Below are positions 1-8,748 of a DNA stretch of 64,000 nucleotides, piece by piece. The first letter of the stretch is position 1. Each line of letters starts with the position of its first letter. The notes under the pieces are model-generated. The model was not told where the DNA came from, searched no databases, and worked only from the letters and a program-made list of their open reading frames with translations. The translations under genes and the position numbers were made by a program. Source of the DNA: Candidatus Desulfovibrio trichonymphae (lineage in GTDB: Bacteria > Desulfobacterota > Desulfovibrionia > Desulfovibrionales > Desulfovibrionaceae); contig NZ_AP017368.1 in NCBI RefSeq assembly GCF_002355955.1, positions 1 to 64,000 of the forward strand, written 5' to 3'.

Positions 1-1413
1 ATGCAAGATCAATGGACAAAAATTTCTGAAAATCTCAAAAAAATGCTGGATTCCGGAACTTTTAAGGTTTGGATTGTCCCGTTACGTGTTGTCGTGCAAG
101 GGGATCGGCTTTGCATCGGCGCTCCCAACGCCTTTGTGGCGGACTGGCTGCGGCAGCGCATGCTGCTGCCCTTGCGGGAAGCTGCAGCGCCGGTGCTTGG
201 CCTTGCGCCCGAATCTGTGGATGTGCGCATTGAAGCCGCCGGACGGGACGCCGCGGCCGGGCAAGCCGTCTCTGGCGCCGGGAAACGCTGTCCGCCTGAG
301 GGCGGGTACGTCGGCGCGGTGCGCGCCGGGCTGCGGCAGATCTTACTGCCCCTGCCCGTTCCGGGAAGTCCTAGCAGGCCGGAGCAATGGCGATATTCCT
401 TTGACGATTTTGAAGTGGGGGTCAGCAACAGCGTTGCCGTTGCAGCCGCCCATGACGTCTGCAACAGCGCGGGCAGCGTCCGCACCCTTTTTGTGAATTC
501 CTCGTCCGGCCTCGGGAAAACCCATCTCTCCCACGCCGTGGGCAGGGCCATCAGTGAATCGCGTGGGAACGCGCGCGTGGGCTATCTGACGGCCGAGGAA
601 TTTGCGCGGCGTTTTGTCGCGGCCCTGCGCAGCCATGATGTGGAGTCTTTCAAGGCCCGTTTGCGCGATCTGGATGTTCTTTTGCTGGAAGACGTGCATT
701 TTTTTCAGGGTAAGGAAAAAATGCAGGACATGGCCTTGACCGTAGTCAAAAACATTGAGGCAAAAGGCGGGCGGACTATTTTTACCTCTTCGTTTTCACC
801 ACGCGAGCTGCAGCATATTGACAGTCAGCTTGTCTCGTATTTCTGCTCCGGCATTCTCACGAGGATGGATCGCCCCTCCAAAGAAATGCGTCGCCGTCTT
901 CTCGCGCGCAAGGCCAAAAGTTTTCAGGTGCTGCTGCCTGATGCCGTCTGTGATTTTTTGGCGTCGCGACTCAAGGGCGACATCCGCCAGTTGGAGTCCT
1001 GTCTGGAAAGCCTTATTTTTAAAGCCCGTCTGCTCAACTGCGGACTTGATCAGAAACTGGCGATGGAGGTGCTTGCCCAGTACGCCGGCGTGGAGTGCGG
1101 GCCGGCGGATATGGAGGCCATCATACGTCTTGTCTGTGAAAGTTATGGCCTAAGCGAAAATCAGCTCAACTCGCGTTCACGACGTCAAGAATGCGTGCTC
1201 GGCCGCAACACTATTTATTATCTGGCGCGCAAGCACACGGATCTTTCGCTTGAGGAAATAGGTGAAAAATTTAACCGTCGGCATTCCACGGTGATCAAGG
1301 GCATCACCTCTGTGGAGCGTGAAATTTCCAAAGAATCCACGTTGGGCCGTCAGATTGCGAAAGCCGTGCATCTTATCGAACGCAATGCCGGCCTTGGGGT
1401 CATACAGCCCTGA
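1..1413 (+). CDS. dnaA: Chromosomal replication initiator DnaA
   Basis: 470-residue AAA+ initiator that binds DnaA boxes and opens oriC. Domain I is the first ~80 residues. The AAA+ core has a Walker A at about residues 167-174 (SSSGLGKTHL) and a Walker B at about 227-234 (LLLEDVHFF). The C-terminal helix-turn-helix domain IV covers about 375-460 and contains LSLEEIGEKFNRRHSTVIKG. The first glycine of the usual GxxxxGKT loop is replaced by serine, although the key GKT is kept. Translation starts at base 1 of the window, so upstream signals and any oriC on that side cannot be seen. It converges with the tyrA-like gene, with only 9 bases between the stops. Identity is certain from the domain pattern. 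Confidence 0.97.
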   Translation: MQDQWTKISENLKKMLDSGTFKVWIVPLRVVVQGDRLCIGAPNAFVADWLRQRMLLPLREAAAPVLGLAPESVDVRIEAAGRDAAAGQAVSGAGKRCPPEGGYVGAVRAGLRQILLPLPVPGSPSRPEQWRYSFDDFEVGVSNSVAVAAAHDVCNSAGSVRTLFVNSSSGLGKTHLSHAVGRAISESRGNARVGYLTAEEFARRFVAALRSHDVESFKARLRDLDVLLLEDVHFFQGKEKMQDMALTVVKNIEAKGGRTIFTSSFSPRELQHIDSQLVSYFCSGILTRMDRPSKEMRRRLLARKAKSFQVLLPDAVCDFLASRLKGDIRQLESCLESLIFKARLLNCGLDQKLAMEVLAQYAGVECGPADMEAIIRLVCESYGLSENQLNSRSRRQECVLGRNTIYYLARKHTDLSLEEIGEKFNRRHSTVIKGITSVEREISKESTLGRQIAKAVHLIERNAGLGVIQP

Positions 1414-1422
1414 AACACCCGA

Positions 1423-2202
1423 TCATATTGTATCTGAGTCTATCCGCGCATCTTTCCACCACCACTGAGCTTTTTCACACAGCAGGTCAATATCGCCACT
1501 CGCGGCCAGATTGAACATCTGGCGATACTGGTGCACGGCTTCGTGGCTGTGGGGGTTGGCCTCAAACAATCCGGCAAAAAGTCTTGCGTCTTCCGTGAGC
1601 ATTTTTTTTGCCGCGTTGAGCCTGCGCCTGAATGAAGGCGTTACAAAGGGCAGCAGATCGTCTTTTTGTGCCAGCAGGGCGAAATAAGCCAGAGTCGTGA
1701 TGAAGTTCATACCCTGTATGCGGGCCATGGCTTGATCGTGCCGTTGCGCGGTTGTTTCAAAAACGCGGCAACCGATGGCGTCAAAAAAGCCGTTTAGAAG
1801 CGCAATATGTTTCGGCCCGGCATTGCGGCCGGGGGTGACGGCCACGGGCAGATCTTCGTCCACAGCGGACGTCGGTCCGAATAGTGGATGGGTTCCCACA
1901 ACCGGGCCTTGCCAGTGCCGCTCCATCTGCCGCATAGGCTGTTCTTTCACGGAAGTGATGTCGGCGAGCACAGCGTAGCGCGGCAAGTGACGGCATGCCC
2001 TTGTCAGGGTTGCTTCAAAAAAAGCGGCGGGCACGCAAATCAGGGCCATGTCAGCGTCCGCGCACGTTTTTTCAAGCATGTCCGGCGTAAGCGGCATATC
2101 CGCGCCTGCCGCGTCAAGTCCGGCGGCGACGGCCCTGTTGCAGAACATGGCGCCCATGCGTCCGCGCGAGCCGATGACGGCTGTCTTGCGTGGCGTTTTC
2201 AT
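1423..2202 (-). CDS. tyrA: Prephenate dehydrogenase (TyrA family)
   Basis: 259-residue NAD(P)-dependent dehydrogenase converting prephenate to 4-hydroxyphenylpyruvate in tyrosine synthesis. The N-terminal dinucleotide-binding loop is IGSRGRMGAMF, followed by the family motif VGTHPLFGPTS at about residues 100-110. A start at 2202 is preferred because its ATG overlaps the TGA of the upstream EPSP synthase as ATGA, the usual translational coupling; an upstream in-frame ATG at 2217 lies inside that gene. It is the last gene of the minus-strand aromatic operon, so it should share the leader-peptide control seen upstream of the first gene. Confidence 0.92.
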   Translation of the reverse strand: MKTPRKTAVIGSRGRMGAMFCNRAVAAGLDAAGADMPLTPDMLEKTCADADMALICVPAAFFEATLTRACRHLPRYAVLADITSVKEQPMRQMERHWQGPVVGTHPLFGPTSAVDEDLPVAVTPGRNAGPKHIALLNGFFDAIGCRVFETTAQRHDQAMARIQGMNFITTLAYFALLAQKDDLLPFVTPSFRRRLNAAKKMLTEDARLFAGLFEANPHSHEAVHQYRQMFNLAASGDIDLLCEKAQWWWKDARIDSDTI

Positions 2203-3590
2203 GCAATGCGGCTCCATAGCTTCCAGAAATCCGGAAAAGACTTGCGCACTACAGCGGGATCGTCAATGCGCGTCGCCATGTTCGTGTCTGACGCGCCGCA
2301 GCCGAGCAGAGCCAGCGACATGGCGATGCGGTGATCGTTGTGCGTTACCAGCGTCAGGCCGTCCACCAGACGCGGGCGCGTCGGGTGCAGACCATGGACG
2401 AGCAGACCGTCAGGCGCTTCCTCCACGCGCACGCCGGCCTTGCGCAGTTCTGTTGCCGGGGCCGTGATGCGGTCTGATTCCTTGAAACGCAGATGGGCGA
2501 CATTGCTGATACGCGTGGTTCCTTGAGCAAACGCGGCCAGCGCCGCCACTGTGGGCGCGAGATCCGGGCAGGAACTCATGTCCGCATCCATGCCGTGTAG
2601 CGTTGAAGGGTAAACGGTGACGGAGTGCCCTTCAACGGCAAGGCGCGCGCCCATGTTTTTAAGAATGTCCAAAAAGGCTCGATCTCCCTGCAGCGAGTCT
2701 GTGCGCAGTCCTTCCACCCGCACAGGCACATGTCCCAGCGCGCCAGCCGCCAGCAGATAGGAGGCGTTCGACCAGTCCCCCTCCACAGTGTAGCTGCCGG
2801 CTTTGTACACGCCGGGTTTCACGGTCACGCGCAGACAGCCGGGCTGCACGGCTTGTATGGCACGCCGCTTTGCATCGTCCGTGTCCTGCCATTGGGCTTC
2901 GGCATGGGGCCGTGTCTGCACACTGAAGCGTATGTTGAAATCCTCAAGACATTGCAGGGTCAGCCCCACATAGGGCCAAGATACAGCCTTGTGCCCGCCC
3001 GGTTCCAGCGTCAGCTGCGTGCGCGCAAGCGGCGCGGCGAGCAGCAGCCCGGAAAAATACTGGCTTGAAATGTCCATGCCTATTGTGACAAGACCGTTGC
3101 ACCGCGCCGGGTCAAGCCCTTGCGCTTCCAGCAGCAGCGGGGGGCAGCCCGGTGTTTGTTCAAAGCGTATGCGGGCGCCGAGGCGCGTCAAGGCGCCCGC
3201 CAGTTCCGCGATGGGGCGCTCGTGCATGCGCTGCGCGCCGTGGATGCGAAAAAATCCCCGTCCAGAGGCCAGCACGGCCGTAAGCAGGCGGCAGGTAGTG
3301 CCGGATTCATGCACATCACAGGCAAGCGGCGTGCCGTCCGCGCTGTTTCCGCGTGGCCCGGCGGCCATGCCCCTGACTTCCCATCCCGTTTTTTCTGGCA
3401 AGGCTCTCATCCCCGCGCCCGCAGCGCAAAGAATGTTACGGGTGCGCTCCAGGTCCTGACTTTCAAGGGCATTGCGCACACAGGAAACGCCGTGCGCCAG
3501 CGCCGCGCCGATCAGATACCGGTGCGACGCGGATTTGGAGGCCGGGGCCGTAACCGCAACAGCGTCGTCAGAACGCATTGTTTTTGTCAT
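2199..3590 (-). CDS. aroA: 3-phosphoshikimate 1-carboxyvinyltransferase (EPSP synthase)
   Basis: 463-residue enzyme joining shikimate 3-phosphate and phosphoenolpyruvate to 5-enolpyruvylshikimate 3-phosphate. The N-terminal substrate-binding motif is present as APASKSASHRYLIGAALA, and the C-terminal half has KESDRI and HNDHRIAMSLALLG, both family hallmarks. It overlaps the upstream pheA by four bases and the downstream tyrA by four bases, so these three genes are translationally coupled. Length is slightly above the usual ~430 residues but the domains are complete. Confidence 0.95.
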   Translation of the reverse strand: MTKTMRSDDAVAVTAPASKSASHRYLIGAALAHGVSCVRNALESQDLERTRNILCAAGAGMRALPEKTGWEVRGMAAGPRGNSADGTPLACDVHESGTTCRLLTAVLASGRGFFRIHGAQRMHERPIAELAGALTRLGARIRFEQTPGCPPLLLEAQGLDPARCNGLVTIGMDISSQYFSGLLLAAPLARTQLTLEPGGHKAVSWPYVGLTLQCLEDFNIRFSVQTRPHAEAQWQDTDDAKRRAIQAVQPGCLRVTVKPGVYKAGSYTVEGDWSNASYLLAAGALGHVPVRVEGLRTDSLQGDRAFLDILKNMGARLAVEGHSVTVYPSTLHGMDADMSSCPDLAPTVAALAAFAQGTTRISNVAHLRFKESDRITAPATELRKAGVRVEEAPDGLLVHGLHPTRPRLVDGLTLVTHNDHRIAMSLALLGCGASDTNMATRIDDPAVVRKSFPDFWKLWSRIA

Positions 3591-4807
3591 GGCGCATTGT
3601 CCCCGCAGTTGTCGTCGGACTTGTCTTTATCCGAATGCGGACGGTCAAGCTGTGGCCCTGTGGGGTAGGAGCCTAGGATGCGGAAGCTCGTGCAGACTTC
3701 GTGTAACTGTGCCAGCAGGCAGGCGTGCTGCGGGGCGGTAAGGTCGCTTTCCACATCCGCAAAAAAAACATAACGCCAGCAGTGGCCGCGCAGGGGGCGT
3801 GATTCGAGTTTGCGCATGTTGATGCCGTTTTTTGCCAGCAGTTCCAGCACGGCTGAAAGCGCACCGGCTTTGTCAGGCAGTGTGAACAGCACGGATGTTT
3901 TGTCCGCGCCGGCGCCGGCGGATGGACGGGGCACGGCCTGCCTCTGCTGCGCCGCTTTCGGCCCTATGATGACAAAGCGCGTCCAGTTGTCCTGTTCATC
4001 TTCAATGCTGCGGGCAAGGACGGCAAGGCCGGTTATGTCGGCAAGCTTGCCGTGACCTATGGCTGCCGCATTGTTTTGCGCCGCCGCGCGATGGGCTGCC
4101 GCGGCGGTAGACTCCACCGGCGCAAGACCGGCATTGGGCAAATGGGCGCGCAGCCAGCTTCCGCACTGGGCCAGCGGCTGCGGATGGGAATAGACAACGT
4201 CAATGGCGGCGATCGATCGGGCATTACTCAACAGGCAGTGTGAAATGCGTGAAAAAAGTTCCGCCTGAATAAAGACATCGTGCTTTAAAAAAAGGTCAAA
4301 GCTCACGCCCACCGTGCCTTGGAGCGAATTTTCCAGCGGCACGACGCCAAGCTCGCACCGACCGGATGTTATTTCTTCAAAAACTCGGGATATGTCGCCG
4401 CAGGGGTGAAAGCTGACCGCGTGTCCGAGATACTCCACGCCGGCAAAGTAAGAAAACGTTCCTTCAGGCCCGAGGTAGGCCACGTTTTGCGGCCGCTGCA
4501 ACACACGTGAGGAGGAGAATATCTCACGCCATATCGTCCTCAGATGTTCCTCCGGCAGCGGGCCTGTATTGCTGAGAACAAGGTTGTCCATCACTTCGCG
4601 TTCACGCAGGGGGTTGAAGATGATGCCTGGCACGCTCGCCTTGATGCGGCCGACTTTAATGCTCAGGGCCGAGCGGCGGTTGAAAAGCTTCAGCAGTGCC
4701 GCGTCCGTGGCGTCAATGGCCGCGCGGATAGCGGCAAGATGGTCTGTTGGAGTGCTGCTCCCCGCGGGGATATTGCTGTGCCGGTCGTGCGCGTTCGTGG
4801 CATTCAT
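3587..4807 (-). CDS. pheA: Bifunctional chorismate mutase / prephenate dehydratase
   Basis: 406-residue P-protein for phenylalanine synthesis. Residues ~15-100 form an AroQ chorismate mutase helical domain (LAAIRAAIDATDAALLKL). The prephenate dehydratase domain follows, beginning VAYLGPEGTFSYFA and including GVVPLENSLQGTVG. A C-terminal ACT regulatory domain (residues ~300-380) carries NGINMRKLESRP, the ESRP motif of phenylalanine feedback sites. The ATG at 4807 is chosen because an AGGAGG ribosome site lies just upstream and the longer frame would run into the preceding gene. It sits four bases after the DHQ synthase stop. Confidence 0.95.
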   Translation of the reverse strand: MNATNAHDRHSNIPAGSSTPTDHLAAIRAAIDATDAALLKLFNRRSALSIKVGRIKASVPGIIFNPLREREVMDNLVLSNTGPLPEEHLRTIWREIFSSSRVLQRPQNVAYLGPEGTFSYFAGVEYLGHAVSFHPCGDISRVFEEITSGRCELGVVPLENSLQGTVGVSFDLFLKHDVFIQAELFSRISHCLLSNARSIAAIDVVYSHPQPLAQCGSWLRAHLPNAGLAPVESTAAAAHRAAAQNNAAAIGHGKLADITGLAVLARSIEDEQDNWTRFVIIGPKAAQQRQAVPRPSAGAGADKTSVLFTLPDKAGALSAVLELLAKNGINMRKLESRPLRGHCWRYVFFADVESDLTAPQHACLLAQLHEVCTSFRILGSYPTGPQLDRPHSDKDKSDDNCGDNAP

Positions 4808-4811
4808 GCCG

Positions 4812-5795
4812 CTATGCCTCCTGAATGTCTTCACGCACCCGCATGCCGAAATGGCGGCCCGCCGCATCTGTGCGGCAAAGCACAAGGTCACCTTCTTTCA
4901 GGCTGACAACGCTTACAGGTGTACCGTCCGGGGCGGTAAGGCGTATGGTTTCGGCATTTTGCAAAAAAACGCCGCCTGTTCTGATGCCGTCTTCGGCCTC
5001 GGCTCTCGCTTCTATCAGCAGCATGGGCCGCACTTCAATTTTAACGCGGCCCACAGTGGACAGACGGGTTTCACCCCGCGCGTTGACAATGAGTATTTCC
5101 TGCCCGGCGACAAGCTCGCTCAGATAGGTGGTTTTATCGCCGGGTAGACGAATATAGGCGTGCACGGCGCCTGCGTTAACGCGAAAGGGGCGGGCGGCTA
5201 CATATTCGTTGTGCTCTGTTTCGGCGTGCACAAGAAAGGTAAAGGCACTGGAGTTGCCCGTCAGCATGCCTTCGCCGTGGCGCAACAACGAGAGCGTGTC
5301 CGCGCAGACGCGGTGCCCGAGGCCCGCCGGCGTGACGCCTGTTATCACGCAGGGCCCCAGCTTTTCCCTGCCTTGGAAGAGTTTGCACGCGGCTACAACC
5401 TCCTTGAGATCGGCCTCGGTCTCGGGCAAGACAACAACGCCGGTCACGCCGCGCTCCAGAATGCCGGACGCAAGGCGCGCTTCGTCAAGAGAGCCTGCCT
5501 CGGCGAACACCTGATTGCTCTGGGCCAGCAGATTTTCTACGGGAATGACTTCCCAGCCGCGCGCAAGGATGACGCGTTCACCCTTGCTCATGAGGGCCAG
5601 TGCGTTTTCTTCATCGCTTTTTGACTTGAGGGCGAGGAGCGTTGTTTCTTCCGCCGCCCAAACAGTGCAGCGGGCCAGCGCCGCTGTCTGCTCCACAACC
5701 CCGGATGGCACGATAAGACCGTCCACACCTGATTCCAGCGCCAGCGTCACTTGGTTTTTGCTGTAGGGAACACAGCGAAAATATATCTGCGGCAT
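4812..5795 (-). CDS. 3-dehydroquinate synthase II (archaeal-type AroB')
   Basis: 327-residue NAD-dependent enzyme that oxidatively deaminates and cyclises 2-amino-3,7-dideoxy-D-threo-hept-6-ulosonate to 3-dehydroquinate. It is unrelated to classical AroB. Family features visible are LPETEADLKEVVAAC in the first half and the C-terminal half rich in short strands (VNARGETRLSTVGRVKIEVRPML). The start at 5795 (MPQIYF) has GGGAGA upstream and lies one base after the ADH synthase stop. Pairing with ADH synthase immediately upstream confirms the alternative shikimate entry known from archaea and several deltaproteobacterial groups. Confidence 0.92.
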   Translation of the reverse strand: MPQIYFRCVPYSKNQVTLALESGVDGLIVPSGVVEQTAALARCTVWAAEETTLLALKSKSDEENALALMSKGERVILARGWEVIPVENLLAQSNQVFAEAGSLDEARLASGILERGVTGVVVLPETEADLKEVVAACKLFQGREKLGPCVITGVTPAGLGHRVCADTLSLLRHGEGMLTGNSSAFTFLVHAETEHNEYVAARPFRVNAGAVHAYIRLPGDKTTYLSELVAGQEILIVNARGETRLSTVGRVKIEVRPMLLIEARAEAEDGIRTGGVFLQNAETIRLTAPDGTPVSVVSLKEGDLVLCRTDAAGRHFGMRVREDIQEA

Positions 5796-5796
5796 G

Positions 5797-6594
5797 TTAT
5801 TCTCCCATTGTCGCGAGGGCGTCGTCCACGTCGGCGTCTTCATGCACGATGGCGCGCAAGGCCTTGATCAGGGCAACACGGCGGGGATGCTGAAAGACGT
5901 TGCGGCCTACGGATATGCCGGCGCCACCCGCCATGAGAGAATCGTGCACCATTTCCAGAATCTGCCGTGTGGAGTCCATGAGTTCTCCGCCCGCAATGAG
6001 CACAGGCACACAGCACGCAGCAATCACTTCGGAAAAGCTCTCCACATCGCCGGTGTAGGACACTTTGACAATATCCGCCCCGAGTTCCACGCCTACGCGT
6101 GCGCAGTGCGCCACAATTTCAGGAGCATAGCCGTTGTGTACCTGAGGGCCGCGTGCGTATATCATGGCGAGCAGCGGCATGCCCCAGCTGTCGCAGGCTT
6201 CCGCCACTTTGCCCATATCCGTGAGCATCAGACGCTCGTTAGGATCGCCCAGATTGACATGTACGGAAACGCAGTCCGCGCCCTGTTTAATGCCTTCCTC
6301 CACCGTGCCGACCAGCGTTTTTGTGTTGCCGGAGGGAGAAAGGGCCGTGGAGGCGGAAAGATGCACAATGAGGCCGATATCCTGGCCCGCGCTACGGTGG
6401 GAGCACCGCACAAGTCCCTTGTGCATGAGCACCGCATCCGCTCCGCCCAGCGCCATGTCGTTCACGGCTTGGCGCATGTCGATAAGGCCGTCCACCGCGC
6501 CTATGGTGACGCCGTGGTCCATGGGCACAATAATGGTGCGGCCGTTTTCACGGTTGATAATGCGTTCAAGACGTACTTTTTTGCCAAGATACAT
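5797..6594 (-). CDS. 2-amino-3,7-dideoxy-D-threo-hept-6-ulosonate (ADH) synthase
   Basis: 265-residue class I aldolase of the FbaB/DeoC-like fold, the first enzyme of the archaeal-type aromatic pathway. Visible signature regions are PMDHGVTIGAVDGLID near the N terminus, VSVHVNLGDPNE in the middle, and VKVSYTGDVESF with the Schiff-base lysine. The GGAGISVGRNVFQH phosphate-binding loop is near the end. It is the first structural gene of the aromatic operon. Its 5' leader carries an aromatic-rich leader peptide and terminator, so expression should respond to charging of Phe, Tyr and Trp tRNAs. Confidence 0.93.
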   Translation of the reverse strand: MYLGKKVRLERIINRENGRTIIVPMDHGVTIGAVDGLIDMRQAVNDMALGGADAVLMHKGLVRCSHRSAGQDIGLIVHLSASTALSPSGNTKTLVGTVEEGIKQGADCVSVHVNLGDPNERLMLTDMGKVAEACDSWGMPLLAMIYARGPQVHNGYAPEIVAHCARVGVELGADIVKVSYTGDVESFSEVIAACCVPVLIAGGELMDSTRQILEMVHDSLMAGGAGISVGRNVFQHPRRVALIKALRAIVHEDADVDDALATMGE

Positions 6595-6635: not shown

Positions 6636-6670
6636 AAAAAAAGGGCCGCAGGCAGACACGCCTGCGGCCC
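6636..6670 (-). terminator. Attenuator terminator of the aromatic operon
   Basis: On the minus strand GGGCCGCAGG and CCTGCGGCCC form a perfect 10-bp GC-rich stem around an 8-base loop (6653-6660), followed directly by seven T (6642-6636). It lies between the aromatic leader peptide and the first structural gene, about 40 bases before its start, where an attenuator terminator would be. Confidence 0.88.
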
Positions 6671-6694
6671 CTTGAACTTCAGCAATAACGGATG

Positions 6695-6796
6695 TCAGCG
6701 AAGTCCCCCACCACAGGCTTCGGTAAAGTACGCAAAATAATACCAGCTCAGGCCGGTGGCGTACGGGGAAGCAAAGATGGGGACAGTGTTGCGCAT
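6695..6796 (-). CDS. Aromatic operon leader peptide (33 aa, attenuator)
   Basis: A 33-codon open frame, ATG at 6796 and TGA at 6695-6697, with a GGAG ribosome site about ten bases upstream. The peptide holds the run SWYYFAYF plus a further Phe and Tyr: in total one Trp, four Tyr and three Phe. It ends 24 bases before a perfect 10-bp stem followed by seven T. This is the classic architecture of a trp/phe-type attenuator: ribosome stalling at aromatic codons would favour an antiterminator. Covering all three aromatic residues fits control of a common shikimate/Phe/Tyr operon. Function is inferred from architecture. Confidence 0.85.
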   Translation of the reverse strand: MRNTVPIFASPYATGLSWYYFAYFTEACGGGLR

Positions 6797-6823
6797 AATC
6801 AAGTTACTCCGTATCCAAAGTGT

Positions 6824-6852
6824 TGTCTAACTGTTGCGTGAAAATTTGTCAA
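6824..6852 (-). promoter_or_regulatory. Candidate sigma-70 promoter of the aromatic operon
   Basis: Perfect TTGACA at 6852-6847, a 17-base spacer and a weaker TAGACA at 6829-6824, read on the minus strand, about 30 bases upstream of the leader peptide start. Only pattern match; no transcription data. Confidence 0.55.
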
Positions 6853-7278: not shown

Positions 7279-8748
7279 TCACCGTTTATTTTTTTTTCGG
7301 CGTTCTTTCTTTTTCCTTTTATTCCCACCGGACGAGCGCCCCGTGGGCAGGGCATGCTCCATGCCCGGAAATCCGGGTATCATGCCGGTGGATGGCATTG
7401 CCCCGTGCGGCAAATTCGCCATGCCGGTCAGGCCGGCCTTGCTGGCCATCATGCATTTCATCATTCTGCGCATCTGCTCAAACTGTCGCACCATCTGATT
7501 GACCTGAGCCACGGTCACGCCGGCGCCTCCGGCTATGCGCACGCGGCGGCTGCCGTTCAGCATGTCGGGATTGCAGCGTTCGGCCATGGTCATGGAATTG
7601 ATAATCGCCTCCGTATGCGCCAGTTCCTTTTCCCGCATCGCGCCGCTGGCCTCGGCCAGTTTTTCCCGCAGCCCGCCGAGCCCCGGAATCATTTTTAAAA
7701 TGCCATCAAGCGAACCTAACTTTTTAATACGCCGCATCTGTGTGCGAAAATCCTCCAAATCAAACGTGGCCTTTTGCATCTTGCGGGCGAGCGCCTCGGC
7801 TTCTTCAGCATTAATGGCGGACTGGGCTTTTTCCACCAGCGTCAGTACATCACCCATACCAAGAATGCGTCCGGCAATTCGGTCAGGATGAAAAATATCC
7901 ATCTCAGACAGTTTTTCTCCGACACCCACAAACTTCACAGGCGTGCCCGTCACCGCGTGGATAGAAAGCGCCGCGCCGCAGCGCGCGTCGCCGTCCATCT
8001 TTGTCAGCACAACGCCTGTCAGGCCGAGACGCCCGTTAAAAGCCTCGGCCACCGTCACGGCGTCCTGACCGGTCATGGCGTCGGCCACAAAAAGAATTTC
8101 CTGCGGGCTGACAGCCGCCTTGATGGCGGAGAGCTCTTCCATCAGGGTTTCGTCCACATGCAGGCGACCGGCCGTATCCAGCAGCAGCACCGTGGCCTGA
8201 ATATCCTCGCCGCGGGCTTTTTCCATCGCGGCAAGCGCTATCTCCACGGGATTCATGTCTATGCTGGAGGGAAAAGAAGGTATGTCAAGCTGCTTTGCCA
8301 GCACCGCAAGCTGTTCGATGGCCGCCGGACGGTACACGTCCGCGGGCACGAGGTAAGGGCGCAATTTCTGCTTGCGCAGTAGGTTGGCAATTTTTGCAGC
8401 CGACGTTGTTTTGCCTGATCCCTGCAAACCAACGAGCATTATCACCGCGGGCTGACGGCCCTGCAGGTTGAGCCTTGCCGTTTCTCCGCCAAGCAGCGCG
8501 ACGAGCTCGCCATGAACAATTTTGACAACCTGCCGGGCAGGGTTGACGCCCTTGATCATCTCCTGCCCAAGGCATTGTTCACGCACGCGCTCCACAAAGT
8601 CCTTGACAACCATGAAATTGACGTCCGCTTCCAGCAGCGCAAGCCGCACTTCGCGCAGGCCGCCCTGTACGTTTTCTTCAACCAGGCGGCCGCCCCTGCC
8701 GAAGGAGCGGAATACGCCGGAAAGTCTGTCAGAGAGTCTCTCGAACAT
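7279..8748 (-). CDS. ffh: Signal recognition particle GTPase Ffh
   Basis: 489-residue SRP54 homologue that binds 4.5S RNA and signal sequences for co-translational membrane targeting. The N domain is residues 1-~90. The G domain has GLQGSGKTT, DTAGRLHVDE and TKMDGDARCG. The C-terminal M domain (~300-440) is methionine-rich and ends in a long lysine/arginine tail. The ATG at 8748 (MFERLSDRLSG) is the family start; an upstream in-frame TTG is not needed. The usual downstream neighbour rpsP is not present here. Confidence 0.96.
   Translation of the reverse strand: MFERLSDRLSGVFRSFGRGGRLVEENVQGGLREVRLALLEADVNFMVVKDFVERVREQCLGQEMIKGVNPARQVVKIVHGELVALLGGETARLNLQGRQPAVIMLVGLQGSGKTTSAAKIANLLRKQKLRPYLVPADVYRPAAIEQLAVLAKQLDIPSFPSSIDMNPVEIALAAMEKARGEDIQATVLLLDTAGRLHVDETLMEELSAIKAAVSPQEILFVADAMTGQDAVTVAEAFNGRLGLTGVVLTKMDGDARCGAALSIHAVTGTPVKFVGVGEKLSEMDIFHPDRIAGRILGMGDVLTLVEKAQSAINAEEAEALARKMQKATFDLEDFRTQMRRIKKLGSLDGILKMIPGLGGLREKLAEASGAMREKELAHTEAIINSMTMAERCNPDMLNGSRRVRIAGGAGVTVAQVNQMVRQFEQMRRMMKCMMASKAGLTGMANLPHGAMPSTGMIPGFPGMEHALPTGRSSGGNKRKKKERRKKNKR

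Follow-up and report, generated by a model that had tools for sequence, protein, structure and literature searches.

The region at 6852-6636 on the minus strand of the window (the whole 64,000-nucleotide stretch analysed here, from 'Candidatus Desulfovibrio trichonymphae') precedes an aromatic amino acid operon, and we posit that it is a ribosome-mediated transcription attenuator whose leader peptide is rich in all three aromatic amino acids. From sequence comparison, we estimate the probability of this reading at roughly 0.88. The steps of such a system can be followed in the sequence: a leader ORF, a cluster of aromatic codons, a tail complementary to the terminator arm, a terminator, and the operon for ADH synthase, DHQ synthase II, pheA, aroA and tyrA. 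The region displays three traits by which leader-peptide attenuators are recognized: clustered codons for the end products in a short translatable ORF, an intrinsic terminator between this ORF and the first structural gene, and an antiterminator that shares the 5' arm of the terminator and depends on the ribosome, as judged by covariation, geometry and masked folding. The source genome consists of one contig of 1,410,056 bp, and a complete genome of 1.4 Mb retaining all amino acid pathways has been described for strain Rs-N31 (PMC7608387). The features of the window are listed below.

6847-6852, minus strand: TTGACA, -35-like box of the putative leader promoter (sequence and conservation)
6829-6824, minus strand: TAGACA, weak -10-like element with a 3/6 match, 17 nt past TTGACA (sequence)
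6807-6810, minus strand: GGAG, Shine-Dalgarno-like, 14 nt 5' of the leader ATG (sequence and conservation)
6695-6796, minus strand: leader ORF of 33 codons, MRNTVPIFASPYATGLSWYYFAYFTEACGGGLR, from the ATG at 6796 to the stop codon ending at 6695 (ORF and homologous leaders in 136 distinct relatives)
6725-6745, minus strand: codons 18-24, W-Y-Y-F-A-Y-F, the aromatic cluster in which the ribosome is proposed to stall (aromatic character kept by position, F, Y and W being exchanged)
6709-6718, minus strand: putative antiterminator 5' strand (the tail) GCCTGTGGTG, inside the leader ORF (9/10 bases pair with 6669-6660; covariation in relatives)
6701-6706, minus strand: 5' strand GGACTT of the antiterminator inner helix, pairing with 6679-6674 (covarying pairs)
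6674-6679, minus strand: 3' strand AAGTTC of the antiterminator inner helix (covarying pairs)
6660-6670, minus strand: terminator 5' arm GGGCCGCAGGC, common to terminator and antiterminator (sequence, fold, relatives)
6636-6653, minus strand: terminator 3' arm GCCTGCGGCCC with a run of seven T at 6642-6636 (sequence, fold)
5797-6594, minus strand: ADH synthase, of the DeoC/LacD aldolase family, which opens the operon (Pfam PF01791)
4812-5795, minus strand: 3-dehydroquinate synthase II (DHQS II; Pfam PF01959)
3587-4807, minus strand: pheA, chorismate mutase, prephenate dehydratase and ACT (CM_2+PDT+ACT; Pfam), start codon approximate
2199-3590, minus strand: aroA, EPSP synthase (Pfam PF00275)
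1423-2217, minus strand: tyrA, prephenate dehydrogenase (PDH_N; Pfam PF02153), C-terminus ending in AQWWWKDARIDSDTI

Most parts of the leader that had been proposed in a sequence-only reading were recovered. Recounting gave the same 33-codon ORF with a ribosome site and eight aromatic codons (W1, Y4, F3; 8/33), and both the 24 nt between its stop codon and the terminator and the seven T were confirmed on the minus strand. The terminator (6670-6643, GGGCCGCAGGC-gtgtct-GCCTGCGGCCC) has a perfect stem as described, but of 11 bp instead of 10, with a loop of 6 before the T7 run; 48 nt separate its end, T run counted, from the ADH synthase ATG at 6594. A 1:2 protector hairpin, which would favour termination when the leader is untranslated, is predicted in the minimum-energy fold of the window. 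Of the proposed promoter, the TTGACA box holds, with TTGAC found ahead of the leader in 125/136 relatives compared with about 10 in shuffled sequences, while the -10 element is weak and a simple promoter scan did not list the box in the window. A Shine-Dalgarno core precedes the leader in 55/136 relatives, compared with about 18 in shuffles. The Pfam domains agree with the operon as first named. Convergent with tyrA, at the start of the window, which is also contig base 1, lies a dnaA-like gene (1-1413, plus strand; Bac_DnaA, DnaA_N, Bac_DnaA_C).

In order to follow the leader across relatives, the DNA preceding ADH synthase homologues was collected from 61 related genomes, 80 named loci and a phylum sample of 297 genomes, 91 of which contain the ADH synthase gene. 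A leader rich in F, Y and W together with a strong terminator was found in 150/223 real regions, some of which duplicate each other, and in 0/669 dinucleotide shuffles. Removal of duplicates left 136 distinct pairs of leader and terminator upstream of ADH synthase in Desulfobacterota. The ORF search picked aromatic-rich frames and the aromatic counts are thus conditioned on selection, whereas position and pairing are unselected; all statistics on the relatives were computed without correction for phylogeny. Aromatic density by itself is not unique, with 7/475 small ATG frames in the window reaching 5 aromatics per 10 residues.

Leaving aside the first set of relatives, the leader and terminator were present in no fewer than 44/76 genomes of the phylum sample and in no fewer than 19/33 family-level groups; the system is not limited to Desulfovibrionaceae or to close kin of the sulfate reducers. 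One family group (f33) possesses ADH synthase and showed no such leader in 9/9 genomes (G087, G124, G159, G213, G237, G261, G284, G324, G344), which is apparently a case of attenuator loss or replacement. Second copies of the ADH synthase gene are often without a leader. The same leader and terminator occur on a contig labelled Candidatus Sumerlaeota (L124), where ADH synthase is 62% identical to the query; this contig may be mis-binned or transferred. Scanning the relatives for additional copies by motif pattern returned many chance and partly palindromic matches in the G+C-rich genomes, and we make no claim of a regulon.

Outside the aromatic cluster the leader peptides diverge widely. Conservation of the aromatic codons in relatives had been named in advance as decisive for the proposal, and among the 136 distinct pairs F, Y and W interchange at fixed positions. 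Counted from the tail, codon positions -9 to -3 are aromatic in 76-94% of leaders at six of the seven positions and in 64% at position -5, and the three residues are mixed within single columns (for example F44 Y18 W20 at one position). Where a codon departs from the consensus of its column, it is still aromatic in 70% of cases, compared with 22% expected among single-base neighbours. All three residues are present in 109/136 leaders. Since F, Y and W are exchanged within single positions, the cluster is most likely a general sensor of Phe, Tyr and Trp together, and we infer sensing of all three from this pattern.

The same attenuator might instead answer to one or two amino acids, such as Phe, with the other aromatic codons neutral or tuning the response, which we regard as possible and rather unlikely. 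F is the commonest residue of the clusters (F499, Y411, W123) and some leaders contain no W. There is also a precedent in Corynebacterium glutamicum, where the AroR leader upstream of aroF carries Phe-Tyr-Phe and responds to Phe, with Tyr being without effect (Neshat et al. 2014, reviewed in PMC11802643; PMC4046766), so that not every aromatic codon in a leader need be sensed. Against a narrower response stand the interchange at fixed positions and the distribution of W, which is found in the leader of 15/15 operons continuing into trpE and of 10/20 without trp genes in reach (Fisher p 0.0016, uncorrected for kinship), as would be expected if W counts. Since W accompanies the trp genes, the codon content of the leader tracks the genes that it would control, and this association supports the notion that each type of aromatic codon may be read. 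In three loci of Pseudodesulfovibrio/Humidesulfovibrio (L089, L091, L107), ADH synthase is without neighbouring shikimate genes, and the leaders contain Phe codons, few Tyr and no Trp (FFFFFSFYF, FFFFFSF).

The second point named in advance, a structure competing with the terminator, is found in a ten-base tail near the end of the ORF. In Desulfovibrionales the tail reads GCCTGYGGYC and is complementary to the terminator 5' arm GGCCGCRGGC, with complete pairing (10/10) in 68/89 sequences; the window has lost one pair (9/10), whose counterpart is intact in the fully paired near sister L002. The tail starts exactly 6 nt past the last aromatic codon in 63/87 sequences and is followed by the stop codon after 11 or 14 nt in 64/87. 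Duplexes of each tail with its own arm average -20.5 kcal/mol, compared with -17.2 (sd 0.23) for randomly reassigned arms, and own pairs surpass permuted ones overall as well as inside each sequence class. Tail and arm occur in three sequence solutions (GCCTGYGG/CCGCAGGC, CTGCGCC/GGCGCAG and TCTGCCCAC/GTGGGCAGA), the latter two in other parts of the phylum, where both partners have changed and the match is kept. A clean double change is seen in Fundidesulfovibrio agrisoli (L084), which combines GCCAGCGG with CCGCTGGC. Across 25 sequences, 96% of the cells in the antiterminator helix are paired, five pairs have changed on both sides and none of 500 shuffles was as good; sliding the partner by one column lowers the pairing below 50%. 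The inner helix, which spans the stop codon, covaries too. For the window, the strand GTACGCCACCGGCCTG ranked above the tail as best-energy duplex and was rejected as the antiterminator strand, which was set by homology to the tail of the relatives instead.

Three loci (L119, L042, L128) keep the nucleotides of the tail in a different reading frame (compare L142), and the constraint on the tail would accordingly act on the RNA and not on the peptide. This observation, the match of the tail to the terminator arm and the dissimilarity of the peptides apart from their aromatic residues render it very improbable that the leader ORF serves to produce a working small peptide, such as one of the membrane, and that the terminator is incidental, an explanation that could account for the conserved ORF, its start codon and, in part, its Shine-Dalgarno sequence.

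According to the attenuator model, scarcity of charged tRNA-Phe, -Tyr or -Trp would stall the ribosome in the cluster and leave the tail free to pair with the terminator 5' arm as the arm emerges. This pairing, aided by the inner helix across the stop codon, would block the terminator and allow transcription of the operon. With plentiful charged tRNAs, the ribosome would reach the stop codon, cover most of the tail and let the terminator form.

Folding with a ribosome footprint, and with RNA polymerase placed just beyond the terminator 5' arm, is consistent with this sequence of events. The median pairing of the 5' arm with upstream RNA was 0.90 for a stall in the middle of the cluster and 0.21 for a ribosome at the stop codon; with shuffled spacers the mid-cluster stall gave 0.59. 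In the window the contrast is weaker (0.82 at the stall vs 0.57 at the stop codon, the latter value not being low), and stalls at W18 or Y19 result in the same predicted antiterminator with its inner helix. Given the one missing pair and this smaller difference, the attenuator of this symbiont may be slightly weakened. Equilibrium folding of the full-length leader with a stalled ribosome was discarded as a criterion for switching. In most sequences the terminator prevails over the antiterminator (exceptions in 33/136, the window not among them), a result of little weight, since attenuation is decided co-transcriptionally. A full-length terminator that is more stable at equilibrium is usual for attenuators, where timing decides, and the model therefore presupposes that the steps follow one another during transcription as they usually do in attenuators.

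Some relatives appear to carry a second attenuator within the operon. In fused aro-trp operons, such as that of L072 (ADH synthase, DHQS II, pheA, aroA, tyrA, trpE, trpG, trpD, trpC, PLP enzyme), the last codons of tyrA are WWW or WWWW; a terminator lies within about 50-80 nt of them, ahead of trpE. These tyrA ends occur in 19/19 loci with the terminator and 2/13 without it (hand count; several loci are close relatives), and a stretch 13-20 nt past the W codons is complementary to the arm of the tyrA-trpE terminator (median z -2.4). The junctions lie at L068-L110 (for example, L072 14980-15090). The 3' end of tyrA is thus a probable leader of an internal Trp attenuator in the fused operons. 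In the window, the TyrA end AQWWWKDARIDSDTI keeps WWW, no terminator follows and the trp genes are gone; by comparison with the fused operons, this C-terminus is a putative relic of such a leader. The genus of the window has its trp genes elsewhere, with their own Trp-codon leader (MGWWWRSLLRRGGVRV and similar) and terminator. In the genome of the window itself, the separate trpE leader (L147, at about 690 kb) has lost Trp codons and the terminator remains (cf. L259): the leader reads ...SAWRRVNICKGDVRQ, where the nearest sister has ...SAWRWRVNICKGDVRQ and free-living relatives have GWWWR. We lean towards an ancestral two-tier system in Desulfobacterota, in which a Phe/Tyr/Trp attenuator at the front would control the whole aro(-trp) operon. 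Where the operon is fused, the WWW/WWWW end of tyrA would act as the leader peptide for a further attenuator, specific to Trp, before trpE; once the trp genes had moved away, this second leader would have become a separate short ORF (GWWWR...).

A terminator between a promoter and the first gene is also compatible with a riboswitch, a T-box or a protein-controlled attenuator accompanied by a coincidental ORF. We consider this highly unlikely, as the ORF, the aromatic codons and the tail are conserved and an aptamer is not, and no Rfam family, T-box included, reached its threshold in the window or the relatives; Trp_leader, the other amino acid leaders and T-box were all below threshold in the window and 12 related loci. 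Spot_42, ftsZ-DE and a frameshift site gave low scores, well short of their thresholds, and these matches are due to the terminator hairpin. Being absent from Rfam, the leaders represent unannotated RNAs. Hardly any weight falls on the idea that the terminator merely ends transcription of an ffh-like gene (signal recognition particle GTPase, named by inspection) that lies upstream on the same strand and ends at 7279, since about 600 nt, with the conserved TTGACA box and then the leader, separate the terminator from ffh, and the position of the terminator before ADH synthase is retained in 136 relatives.

The proposed mechanism is classical leader-peptide attenuation. With trpL and pheL of Escherichia coli it shares a short ORF with codons for products of the pathway, a terminator before the first gene and a competing tail pairing. 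Those leaders sense one amino acid each, whereas the cluster in Desulfobacterota mixes Phe, Tyr and Trp and would control the common pathway along with pheA and tyrA, and in many relatives the trp genes. In the E. coli trp leader about 15 nt separate the Trp codons from the antiterminator strand, unlike in Desulfobacterota, where the offset is about 6 nt. That attenuators usually sense one or two amino acids, as first argued, is true with exceptions. The ilvGMEDA attenuator of E. coli combines codons for Ile, Val and Leu in one leader for a branched pathway; it resembles the present case in joining three related amino acids and differs in being branched-chain, with another operon and sequence. 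AroR, a further case with more than one amino acid (PMC11802643), likewise has an aromatic-codon leader before an early gene of the shikimate pathway. It belongs to Actinobacteria and DAHP synthase, contains three codons without Trp and responds to Phe only, whereas the leaders of Desulfobacterota precede ADH synthase, carry clusters of 6-15 residues, usually with all three aromatics, and extend across the phylum. The T-box of aromatic operons in Firmicutes also attenuates in response to uncharged tRNA, but binds the tRNA directly without translation, and neither the leader of the window nor the related loci match it. A search of the open literature returned no paper describing such control by leader peptides for this operon or, in Desulfo* organisms, for aromatic operons in general. 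The three-amino-acid cluster, its phylum-wide spread and the target operon appear undescribed there.

A phylum that includes many sulfate reducers would gain a concrete regulatory mechanism for aromatic amino acid synthesis via the archaeal-type ADH synthase route. The attenuator would be the aromatic counterpart of the three-amino-acid ilvGMEDA system, with a natural experiment in which W goes with trp. If the variant at the end of tyrA is true, the 3' end of an enzyme gene would double as a leader peptide.
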